Of a stretch of DNA of 64,000 nt, positions 55,703 to 59,217 are shown in pieces. The translations under genes were made by a program, and so were the position numbers. The notes under the pieces are model-generated. The model was not told the DNA's origin. It was given only the letters and a program-made list of their open reading frames with translations, and ran no database searches. The DNA is from Gammaproteobacteria bacterium. Its GTDB lineage: Bacteria; Pseudomonadota; Gammaproteobacteria; SZUA-152. The stretch lies in NCBI GenBank assembly GCA_032250735.1, contig JAVVEP010000012.1, positions 1-64,000 of the forward strand. The letters are read 5' to 3'. Each line of letters begins with the position of its first letter. Positions within the stretch are counted from its first letter, which is position 1.

Positions 55703-55741
55703 AAAAAGGCCTGCACTTTTAACCAGTGCAGGCCTTTTTTT
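55703..55741 (+). terminator. Intrinsic terminator after slyD
   Basis: Perfect 15-bp stem AAAAAGGCCTGCACT / AGTGCAGGCCTTTTT with a 7-nt loop and a further T run. An 8-bp hairpin (ATCGGTTA/TAACCGAT, 55682-55699) sits just before it. Confidence 0.95.
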
Positions 55742-55893: not shown

Positions 55894-56508
55894 TTAAAAA
55901 TATTTCGACGCGGAAAAAATAGTAGATTGCGAATCATCGCTGGATGAGAAATGTAATCCAAGGGAGACATGCTTAGACATATAACCCTCGACACCCAAAT
56001 TCAAACCTGTATCAGTTTCGCCGTCAAAAAAGGACTGATCAGCACCGACATTCAGCTCCAGCTTGTCACTCAACATCGTGCGAACACCTATCGATACTAA
56101 TTGCCCGTCTTTATCATTCTTGGTGGCAGGAAAACCACCAACCTTTGCCTTTACCTCACCCAGAAGTAATGCAGCACCAAGTAAAACATCAGTTTTCTGG
56201 GAAACAGGTGCGTGAAAAAGGATGCCCAGCATTTTGGCATCTACATCCAATCCTACTTTGCTACCGGAAATATTCACGTCGCCGGCTGCATTCGCGATTC
56301 CAAAAGTCACGGCAAATTGCTTATTAGCATCAAAGGAAGCTGTTAAATCATATCCATCGGCCTTCAAATCATCGCTAATCCCGATCATCTCCACTGTAAA
56401 ATCCGCATATCCGAGCGATATTTTATTGTAGTTAAACTTTGCCGCCTGGACCGAAGCTTGAGCTGACAGGAGAACAAGAAAAAGAATGCTGATGAGGTTG
56501 TTTTTCAT
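55894..56508 (-). CDS. Small outer-membrane beta-barrel protein
   Basis: A 204-residue exported protein (signal MKNNLISILFLVLLSAQASVQA). Alternating polar/hydrophobic strands give about eight beta-strands, and the C-terminal SKYF ends in the Phe used for barrel insertion. No family was recognised beyond general OmpA/OprF-like or YfaZ-like barrels. It is the last gene of the A/T-rich CsgG-GNA1162 island and shares its orientation and composition. Confidence 0.7.
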   Translation of the reverse strand: MKNNLISILFLVLLSAQASVQAAKFNYNKISLGYADFTVEMIGISDDLKADGYDLTASFDANKQFAVTFGIANAAGDVNISGSKVGLDVDAKMLGILFHAPVSQKTDVLLGAALLLGEVKAKVGGFPATKNDKDGQLVSIGVRTMLSDKLELNVGADQSFFDGETDTGLNLGVEGYMSKHVSLGLHFSSSDDSQSTIFSASKYF

Positions 56509-56535
56509 TATTAATTTTCGTTGTATTCAACAAAA

Positions 56536-57225
56536 TTACGGTTGTGCGACGGTAGAATTTGCAGGCGGCACAATCATTTGTTTGCTGTCCTTGCCATGAA
56601 GGTTGTGGTATCCGCCATAGGGAATATTATTCAGTGCGATGTAGTTCACATTGCGTGCTATGGGGACGTAGTCCTGAGTAGAGGTTTTAATTGCTGTAGC
56701 AATCAACGCACCGAGAAGACCCCCTCCATTATTACTATCGCCACTGGTATCCATCACCAGCTCATTGGCATAAGACCATATTTCGGCGCCAGTTTTGGTG
56801 GATTTGAGTTTGTAGCTAATACCCACTTTGACGTTACCGCCGATTACGTAATAATTTGTATCCCAGCGATCAATAGTCACATAAAGGACTGCATCGGCTC
56901 CAAATATTTTTGAAAACTTCTGCGGGGGGATGGATAACATTTGATCGCCTGTACTAAGGCCTTCATTACGCAAAAACTTTTGAGTAATTTCTGTGGATAA
57001 TACATAAAAGCCGGAATTCGCTAATGGCTGCGCAATAGTTGAGGAATATAGATTTGGGGCATCAGCCGCCGTACTGTGATTAACAGCTGGCAATACCATT
57101 ACCGTTTTGGGCATTTCTAGGTACATTTCAGGGTACACATCACCCTTCGGTATCCGATTGTTGACCGCGCAACCGGAAAGCACCAGCAGGGCGAAACACA
57201 ACATGCTTACTATAAATGCTCTCAT
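56536..57225 (-). CDS. GNA1162-family (DUF799) lipoprotein
   Basis: A 229-residue lipoprotein (VLSGC, Cys 19, Ala at +2, so outer-membrane sorted). The family's structural member from Neisseria meningitidis has a TolB-N-like fold. Motifs: PKTVMVLPAVNHSTAADAPN, ITQKFLRNEGLSTGDQML, and FGADAVLYVTIDRWDTNYYVIGG. GNA1162 genes regularly occur with CsgG and DUF4810 genes, as here. The function of the trio is not established. Confidence 0.9.
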   Translation of the reverse strand: MRAFIVSMLCFALLVLSGCAVNNRIPKGDVYPEMYLEMPKTVMVLPAVNHSTAADAPNLYSSTIAQPLANSGFYVLSTEITQKFLRNEGLSTGDQMLSIPPQKFSKIFGADAVLYVTIDRWDTNYYVIGGNVKVGISYKLKSTKTGAEIWSYANELVMDTSGDSNNGGGLLGALIATAIKTSTQDYVPIARNVNYIALNNIPYGGYHNLHGKDSKQMIVPPANSTVAQP

Positions 57226-57251
57226 AATCAGCTTTACCTTTTTTGAATGAA

Positions 57252-57602
57252 TCAGCTCTTTTTAAGAATTTGATTAACCATGGCCTTAGATTCTGGATAA
57301 ACGCTCAGCTCCAGGTTGAAATATTGGTTTGCTTCCTTTTGCTTGCCGTCTTCCAAGGAATACATGCCCATTTCAGCATATAGACCTGGTGGAACTCGAA
57401 GATTCATTTCCTTTGATTTCGCAATCACTTCATTGATTTCGGCAATATGTTTAGCGCGAGCCTCCGCTCCTGGATTTTTTTTCAGCTCATACAGGGTGTG
57501 TGAATACTTTCCCCAGTAAAGACCAGATTGACTGACATTCATGGTTGCACAACCAGACAACCAGAGAACGCCCATTAATGCTACGAATAGTCTTTTATTC
57601 AC
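57252..57602 (-). CDS. DUF4810 lipoprotein
   Basis: A 116-residue lipoprotein (WLSGC, Cys 18, Ala at +2). It has the DUF4810 pattern: SGLYWGKYSHTLYELKKNPG near the start, then two TPR-like helices with VPPGLYAEMGMYSLEDGKQKEANQYFNLEL (about residues 70-100). It overlaps the small lipoprotein gene upstream by 4 nt. A member of the CsgG-DUF4810-GNA1162 set, probably part of one outer-membrane complex. Confidence 0.88.
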   Translation of the reverse strand: MNKRLFVALMGVLWLSGCATMNVSQSGLYWGKYSHTLYELKKNPGAEARAKHIAEINEVIAKSKEMNLRVPPGLYAEMGMYSLEDGKQKEANQYFNLELSVYPESKAMVNQILKKS

Positions 57603-57922
57603 AATCTCACCTCAAAGCTATTGCCGTTAGATACATAGAATTTACGATGAGCCTTTAACTCACCATTTTTGGTAATTTTTACAGAATGGTTGCCAATGGA
57701 AATTTCAATCTTGGTGGCAGTTTGCCCATTTATATCGAATGAGACGGTATCTTTTTCCAATTCAAGTGGCTTGCCATCATCTATGGTCACTACATTACCT
57801 GCAGGTTCACCAATAATCAGCAAGTAGGCCTTATCTGAAACCTGTGTGGTTTGCTCAAAAGAGCCGCAGGCGCTAAGTGCCAGCATGAGCATGATGCTGA
57901 TCAATACAATTAGTTTTTTCAT
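57599..57922 (-). CDS. Small PEGA-like lipoprotein within the CsgG cluster
   Basis: A 107-residue lipoprotein (LALSAC, Cys 19, Gly at +2). The mature 88 residues look all-beta: AYLLIIGEPAGNVVTIDD, TKIEISIGNHSVKITKNG, HRKFYVSNGNSFEVRL. The pattern resembles PEGA-type surface domains. I do not recognise it as a standard member of the CsgG/DUF4810/GNA1162 trio, so it may be a variable component. Its stop overlaps the DUF4810 start, and it is 11 nt from csgG. Confidence 0.8.
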   Translation of the reverse strand: MKKLIVLISIMLMLALSACGSFEQTTQVSDKAYLLIIGEPAGNVVTIDDGKPLELEKDTVSFDINGQTATKIEISIGNHSVKITKNGELKAHRKFYVSNGNSFEVRL

Positions 57923-57933
57923 AAATTCCTCGA

Positions 57934-58869
57934 TTAGATTTCCTGAACCACCAGATCTTTAATGGTCAGCCCTTTCAAAGTGCCGCTAGTTACCGTACAT
58001 ATTGAGATTTCATTATTGCCTTCACCGGAAAAGGCGGCGATGGTCAGCTTAGCGGCCTCACTTCGTGGCAGTTCTATCATCATGCCTGTCTGAGGATTTT
58101 TGACTTTACGGCCCATTTTCATCACTTTCAATTCATCACCGACATTCAAACCTTGCGCCTTACCCCCCGATATAATCACCTGCCCGTCTTGCTGATCGAG
58201 AATGTAGGCCGCCCATGGCTTGTCCATCAGGTTTTCAACCAGGTTGCTGACTAATTTGGAAATAGCAGCAGACAAGGCTTTGTCGTCTATTGAGGCATCA
58301 TATCCCGCACGCTCACCCACACCAAAAACCCGATTCGCCTCAGACATTGAAGATCCGCTGCCTTCTTGTGAGAAAACTATCTGGCCGGTAGTGACATCCA
58401 CCAATCTGACATTGACTGTGGCATTAGCTTCCTGTTTCAGGTTACGTGAAAACACGCCGACTTCACTCGTTGCCTTACGACCAAACTCAGAGACTGATCC
58501 GATAATGAGATAATCTGCCCCGATAACTTCTGCGTTGACCTTGGCGATGTTTTGCTCGGTCTTTATTTTGCCAAGATCAGCGCGCTCAAACATCAGGAAC
58601 TTGCCTGTCTGTGTCAGGCGTGCGGAGAGAATATCCATGGCCTGTTTTCCAATCTTGTCGTTATTTTCATCCAGTAAAAAACTATTCCCATGTTTAGTTT
58701 CATTGCTGAATCTTGCAATCGCCACCTTACGCTTCAACCCTTTAAAGGATTCAGGCACGATCGTTTTGCTTACTTGAGGCCCAGGATCAGGTTTGTTGAC
58801 CGTTTCAATAGTTGCTGTAGAACATGCAACCAGGGATAAAAGAAGAAGAATCGTCAAGTATTTAGTCAT
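57934..58869 (-). CDS. CsgG-family outer-membrane secretion channel lipoprotein
   Basis: A 311-residue CsgG-like lipoprotein (LVACS, Cys 16, Ser at +2). CsgG proteins build nonameric outer-membrane pores; E. coli CsgG secretes curli. Visible blocks are RKVAIARFSNETKHG, QAMDILSARLTQTGKFLMFERADL, ADYLIIGSVSEFGRK and VNVRLVDVTTGQIVFSQEGSG. The last 80 residues form an extra domain (AQGLNVGDELKVMKMGRKVKNP) beyond the core. No curlin genes are nearby. It leads the four-lipoprotein operon. Confidence 0.9.
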   Translation of the reverse strand: MTKYLTILLLLSLVACSTATIETVNKPDPGPQVSKTIVPESFKGLKRKVAIARFSNETKHGNSFLLDENNDKIGKQAMDILSARLTQTGKFLMFERADLGKIKTEQNIAKVNAEVIGADYLIIGSVSEFGRKATSEVGVFSRNLKQEANATVNVRLVDVTTGQIVFSQEGSGSSMSEANRVFGVGERAGYDASIDDKALSAAISKLVSNLVENLMDKPWAAYILDQQDGQVIISGGKAQGLNVGDELKVMKMGRKVKNPQTGMMIELPRSEAAKLTIAAFSGEGNNEISICTVTSGTLKGLTIKDLVVQEI

Positions 58870-59217
58870 GAAGCAATGCCTTATTTAATTAGCTGGGTAT
58901 ATTTTTTCTAATTCTTACCATCATACCTAGGGGGTTCGTAAACGCCTACATTATTTGTAAGGCAATTCTTACAAAATTAAAAATATAATTTGGTGCTCTT
59001 GTGTTTAAGAAAATGAAAAGAAGCACAATTGTACTTCTTTAGGTTATACAAACAACTTGTATTTATCGGCTATTCTTTTCGTTCCTTGAATAAATTTAGC
59101 TTATCGACAATTCCCTTCTTCAGATAAACGCCTCCTGTACTCACCAGGCCAGATCACCATTTTTGCTGATTCACCGCTTCTAACGCCGATTAGTAAAAAA
59201 TCACCTCGCCAAACCGC
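58870..59217. promoter_or_regulatory. A/T-rich gap upstream of csgG with a dyad operator candidate
   Basis: 348 nt without a gene. It holds TTTGTAAG-N6-CTTACAAA (58954-58975), a perfect 8-bp inverted repeat about 85 nt before the csgG start, well placed for a regulator. A second palindrome, AAGAAGCACAATTGTACTTCTT (59019-59040), has one central mismatch pair per arm and is followed by TTAGG; it could be an operator or a weak terminator. The right part, towards dctM, looks featureless. Confidence 0.4.

Follow-up and report, generated by a model that had tools for sequence, protein, structure and literature searches.

Among the recognised meningococcal vaccine antigens is GNA1162, and genes of the set CsgG–DUF4810–GNA1162 occur in many bacteria. 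The accessible part of the literature on GNA1162 (DUF799) deals with vaccines, the content of outer-membrane vesicles, expression and allele lists. Our literature search, which left most subscription papers outside and is thus a weak negative, found no paper on DUF4810 and none giving this trio, or the quartet described here, a function. The curli CsgG channel is a nonameric, 36-stranded barrel in the outer membrane (PMC7304575), and the Vibrio flagellar H-ring consists of the outer-membrane lipoproteins FlgO and FlgP, plus FlgT (PMC7990780). Here we analyse a CsgG–DUF4810–GNA1162 locus in 64,000 nucleotides (nt) of a gammaproteobacterial contig (JAVVEP010000012.1, assembly GCA_032250735.1; hereafter the window). 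We found that such genes exist in two kinds, and that the kind present in the window, class II, is a four-part unit which, together with its unnamed member, a small lipoprotein (sLP), appears to be undescribed.

The minus strand of the window carries a head-to-tail row of five genes (58869–55894). They encode a class II CsgG-family lipoprotein with a FlgT-like C-terminal domain (57934–58869; 311 amino acids (aa); PF03783, E = 1.3e-34), sLP, predicted to be a PEGA/transthyretin-like beta-sandwich (57599–57922; 107 aa), a DUF4810 lipoprotein with a GTG start (57252–57602; 116 aa; PF16068, 2.3e-22), a class II GNA1162-like (DUF799) lipoprotein (56536–57225; 229 aa; PF05643, 1.6e-36) and an outer-membrane beta-barrel with a C-terminal Phe (55894–56508; 204 aa; PF13505 (OMP_b-brl), 5.6e-9, above cut-off). 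The intergenic gaps, from csgG to the barrel gene, are 11, −4, 26 and 27 nt, the start of DUF4810 overlapping the end of sLP by 4 nt. In the same order, the lipoboxes read LVAC-S, LSAC-G, LSGC-A and LSGC-A, none with Asp at +2; a simple pattern search likewise found no Asp at +2 in any of the four proteins across the 80 class II loci introduced below. G+C content in 500-nt steps was 40–48% over 55.5–59.0 kb, versus 56–67% in most flanking steps (44.0% for the quartet, 61.1% for the flanks). An earlier note on this DNA had described lipoproteins without Asp at +2 in a tight row, a G+C content of about 40% by eye and a lack of curli genes: all five genes and the lipoboxes were confirmed, measurement bore out the low G+C, and we found no CsgF in the window's genome and no curli genes nearby.

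In a first survey, 398 genomes of the phylum were searched with PF05643 and the loci retrieved; the GNA1162 loci divided cleanly into two classes, of which class I is the larger. Class I comprises CsgG, DUF4810 and GNA1162, with −38 to 59 nt and no gene between csgG and DUF4810, while in class II CsgG is longer and the sLP gene stands between csgG and DUF4810. From a conserved motif to its C-terminus, CsgG measured 259–289 residues in 66/66 class II members versus 175–178 in 19/19 of class I, making the class II protein about 88 residues longer at that end. In a GNA1162 tree, a single branch separates the classes (support 100/99). The class II sequences of loci L052 and L053 were placed closest to class I, so that, under the root used for drawing, sLP and the CsgG extension may have been lost together once.

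The small lipoprotein is, by its gene linkage, a genuine fourth core part of the class II cassette. A scan of named genomes used only the class II CsgG alignment, making the presence of sLP in the best 80 loci an independent test (an earlier scan of the genome collection with a single GNA1162 sequence had retrieved nothing). sLP lay between csgG and DUF4810 in 79 of these 80 loci, the sole exception (L117) being a contig that stops just after CsgG. It held the same position in all 12 class II loci of the first survey, which partly come from the same genomes as the 80 (L083 is G008, L089 is G013), and in 4/4 records from a plasmid collection. Searched in reverse, an sLP profile hit 11 of the 398 genomes, always within the cassette; in one of them (G169) the contig ends inside GNA1162. 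The four lipoprotein genes keep their order and strand in 79/80 loci from many phyla, an arrangement far beyond chance. The dedicated envelope complex with sLP as a new part, which the earlier note had proposed, is thus well supported by strict gene linkage, and the survey of GNA1162 neighbourhoods that it suggested found sLP with the trio, in class II only, and the barrel rarely.

Several loci departed from these layouts. At L047 (4532–5350) the CsgG C-terminal domain is truncated, perhaps by a frameshift, and sLP is still present. In the Rheinheimera loci L101, L104 and L107, the quartet is followed after about 210 nt by an additional GNA1162-like gene, shorter than the first, and L140 has two GNA1162 genes in tandem. 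GNA1162-like and CsgG-like domains also occur within frames of about 560–800 aa, an architecture that differs from the lipoprotein (genomes G207, G276, G231, G140, G149, G173 (contig C24) and G236 (contig C77), and loci L080–L081). Another three-gene set, in two genomes of the same family (L010, 5493–7913, G019; L011, 7319–9735, G017), encodes a secreted 206-aa protein, a 257-aa GNA1162-like lipoprotein and a 317-aa CsgG/FlgT-like lipoprotein.

The predicted model of sLP (predicted local distance difference test (pLDDT) score 87.6) is a seven-stranded beta-sandwich resembling transthyretin-like domains. Its best structural match was to 9k1u (Z = 7.9), the transthyretin-like domain 5aq0 gave Z = 6.4, and matches to sugar-binding domains found with Foldseek, like all others, stayed at Z < 8. 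By sequence, sLP fell below the PEGA cut-off (PF08308; 12.9 bits against 20.8, E = 0.11), PEGA matched 3 of 12 family members (best 0.0023), and a search against solved structures gave chance-level matches only.

The window's CsgG clearly belongs to its family (119.8 bits to PF03783, cut-off 20.8), as do all 12 class II members tested, which matched above cut-off. Its model (pLDDT 72.0, predicted template modelling score (pTM) 0.61) best matched FlgT over both domains (8z5n, Z = 18.4, 245 residues, 5.2 Å, residues 29–311; 3w1e, Z = 14.4, 225 residues, 4.6 Å), and the best E. coli CsgG chain matched the core domain (Z = 13.8, 165 residues). At the profile level the FlgT signal was slight: FlgT_C matched 2/12 and FlgT_M 1/12 class II members, at low scores, and FlgT_M fell below cut-off for the window protein (E = 0.14). 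In an alignment with E. coli K-12 CsgG, the second membrane hairpin (TM2) is 11 columns short in both classes and the first (TM1) 3–6 columns short. With hairpin limits that are our own choice of segments on the alignment rather than taken from a structure, the window protein has 31 residues against 37 in E. coli for TM2 (an 11-column gap) and 22 against 28 for TM1 (6 columns missing). What remains of the TM2 stretch is more polar, its best hydrophobic face scoring 1.1–2.0 versus 3.0 in E. coli CsgG.

We put at about an even chance that the cassette is an operon, complete in itself and moving horizontally, that encodes a complex of four lipoproteins in which an outer-membrane-anchored ring scaffold is favoured over a curli-type pore, because the long CsgG model matches FlgT best and its second hairpin lacks 11 residues. 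The CsgG-family protein, with its FlgT middle plus C-terminal layout, would, judging from the model, form a periplasmic ring hung by its lipids from the inner leaflet of the outer membrane. GNA1162, predicted to be of the same fold class, might join this ring or stack on it; the fold of both subunits would be one that also occurs in several envelope lipoproteins that form rings. The sLP sandwich may pack against the FlgT-like C-terminal domain of CsgG, since both are present or absent together, and DUF4810 could be a small adaptor linking the parts. By analogy with the Vibrio H-ring, the assembly would be a scaffold or collar for something that crosses the outer membrane or is anchored there, not a curli-type channel, and in the window's lineage a small beta-barrel may have been added as an optional partner. 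More tentatively, and in our view rather less probably than not, the quartet would be an undescribed, widely traded H-ring-like outer-membrane collar (of CsgG/FlgT-type, GNA1162-type and beta-sandwich lipoproteins), unconnected with flagella or curli, that confers a selectable envelope function such as attachment, secretion or stress resistance.

Several points weigh against a ring scaffold of this kind. The CsgG model is of middling confidence; the CsgG fold is common to proteins with unrelated jobs (PelC, PqiC, LptE and TolB); and three long strands in the model (120–137, 141–158 and 164–181) could be a membrane hairpin and one further strand. The linkage of sLP with the CsgG extension, as seen in gene content, is evidence of joint inheritance and not of contact. 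The H-ring comparison is an analogy, saying that the cassette may work like an H-ring and not that it is a motor part, because the host carries a separate, true FlgT elsewhere in its genome and flagellar genes are absent from the surroundings of the cassette.

Among other explanations, the one that survives best, though we consider it unlikely, is a CsgG-type secretion pore with an unlinked substrate, in which the short hairpins would still enter the outer membrane and the other lipoproteins would gate or cap the pore as CsgE and CsgF do. It draws on the clear family membership, the CsgG-like fold and the fact that the majority of members are lipoproteins lacking Asp at +2. The shortened, more polar hairpins count against it, as do two class II CsgG proteins with a signal peptide and no lipobox Cys (L048, 7536–8465; L052, 4276–5229), which also show that not all members are lipoproteins. 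Moreover, CsgF was absent from 10 of 12 cassette-bearing genomes, and no substrate gene recurs nearby. Of the earlier note's suggestion of a secretion pore with its own substrate, the pore is disfavoured by the short second hairpin, the FlgT-like C-terminal domain and the missing CsgF, and the substrate by the lack of any secreted-protein gene recurring next to the cassette.

A role in regulating cell-wall synthesis, with the outer-membrane lipoproteins reaching through the peptidoglycan to activate a synthase as LpoB does, strikes us as somewhat harder still to credit. LpoB matched 7/12 class II CsgG members (best 2.4e-5), but this match is only partial and lies in the fold that they have in common (for the window protein, 21.6 bits, below the cut-off of 22.3), no wall synthase recurs nearby, and four partner lipoproteins exceed what LpoB needs. 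That the complex aids the passage of lipid or polysaccharide at the outer membrane, in the manner of PqiC or PelC rings, seems to us quite improbable: structural matches do include PelC (Z = 12.9), PqiC (Z = 9.8) and LptE (Z about 10), but neither transport nor polysaccharide genes are recurrent neighbours of the cassette, and PqiC/PelC-type systems need inner-membrane partners, none of which is linked here. Finally, despite the rarely linked barrel, it is scarcely credible that these five genes merely happen to lie together in an A/T-rich stretch and share no function, which for the quartet is contradicted by the order and strand kept in 79/80 loci while the neighbours change fully.

The barrel gene is best seen, from its distribution, as a lineage-specific accessory. 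Besides the window, a barrel was found in 3 of the 80 loci, the others having none by profile. A close one (42% identity) directly follows the quartet in congener G008 (L009/L083), and distant ones (23% identity) lie 336–371 nt downstream of the quartet in the related gammaproteobacterial loci L085 and L088. Among 12 genomes of the genus, the quartet occurs in two, and the same two carry the close barrel. We rejected the barrel as a core part on this rarity, and with it the earlier note's view of the barrel as a new part of the complex. A PEP-CTERM-type protein in L009, picked up by a profile of two barrels (E = 4e-4), was taken as spurious; its match became inflated once the protein itself had entered the profile. 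Between GNA1162 and the barrel, L085 (2632–2931) and L088 (9325–9660) each encode a secreted protein, about 100 aa long, in which two Cys are conserved (DQMVCxAGKxLTVLN.NYSKKSLTC). On Novosphingobium pLA5 (L175, 3169–4261), the quartet is immediately preceded by a 100-aa frame and an outer-membrane beta-barrel gene, the latter not hit by the profile of the window's barrel.

The plain reading of the sequence comparisons is that the window's genome acquired the cassette horizontally. In six congeners (G002, G003, G004, G007, G010 and G011) the site is empty, a slyD-like FKBP gene and dctM standing convergent and 88–611 nt apart, whereas in the window 3.5 kb separates them (acquired segment 55680–59217, its ends not exactly resolvable); in congener G008 the quintet is at a different site. 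Horizontal acquisition is argued for by this empty site, by patchy spread (clearly present in three of 24 genomes from the family) and by plasmid copies. Four plasmid-collection records carry the cassette, including Novosphingobium pLA5 and Polaromonas pPNAP04, both annotated in the order CsgG/HfaB, hypothetical, DUF4810, GNA1162; on pPNAP04 an IS5-family transposase is nearby. Homology to the congeners breaks off at the 3′ end of each flanking gene, and the short intergenic stretch of the relatives cannot be aligned, so that the limits of the insertion could not be placed; a search for a target duplication gave no convincing direct repeat around the segment. A perfect inverted repeat of 15 nt with a 7-nt loop (55703–55739) is a candidate two-way terminator at the convergent end. 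Composition alone was rejected as proof of transfer: the cassette's G+C averages only 3 points below its surroundings and is lower in 58/72 loci, so that the window's 17-point gap is extreme but the tendency general.

Cassette hosts include Gammaproteobacteria, Magnetococcales, Methylophilaceae, relatives of Bdellovibrio and Bacteriovorax, Nitrospirae, Desulfobacterales and other deltaproteobacteria, Sulfurimonas and relatives, Bacteroidales, Ignavibacteria and Calditrichaeota. No Pfam family appeared in more than 3 of 99 nearest neighbours, and gene clusters common to loci follow related hosts; with none conserved, neighbours were discarded as a guide to function.

With the split into two classes, what was vaguely annotated as ‘curli-like’ becomes a defined complex of four subunits, with sLP and the extra CsgG domain as a specific candidate pair, and labelling class II CsgG proteins as curli transporters is probably wrong. 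The class I trio of the Neisseria/Burkholderia type (NMB1164–NMB1163–NMB1162) agrees with the window in its three lipoprotein families and their order, but its CsgG is shorter and there is no room for sLP between csgG and DUF4810. GNA1162 itself (PDB 4hrv) is a solved homologue of the window's fourth gene product (7.7e-20), which belongs to a class II subfamily scoring about 126 bits to its Pfam family (126.1 bits for the window protein, cut-off 25.9) versus 221–306 bits in class I. The ring lipoproteins PelC and PqiC have the overall fold of the CsgG core but differ in partners and gene context. Curli CsgG, which works with CsgE and CsgF, is of the same family and core-domain fold, whereas the cassette protein has short membrane-hairpin segments, an extra C-terminal domain and no CsgF in its host. 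None of the four cassette proteins matches the LPP20/FlgP family, unlike in the Vibrio flagellar H-ring, and no flagellar genes are nearby; yet the H-ring, with the same FlgT-like two-domain layout and fold and with lipoprotein partners, is the nearest working analogue of the cassette.

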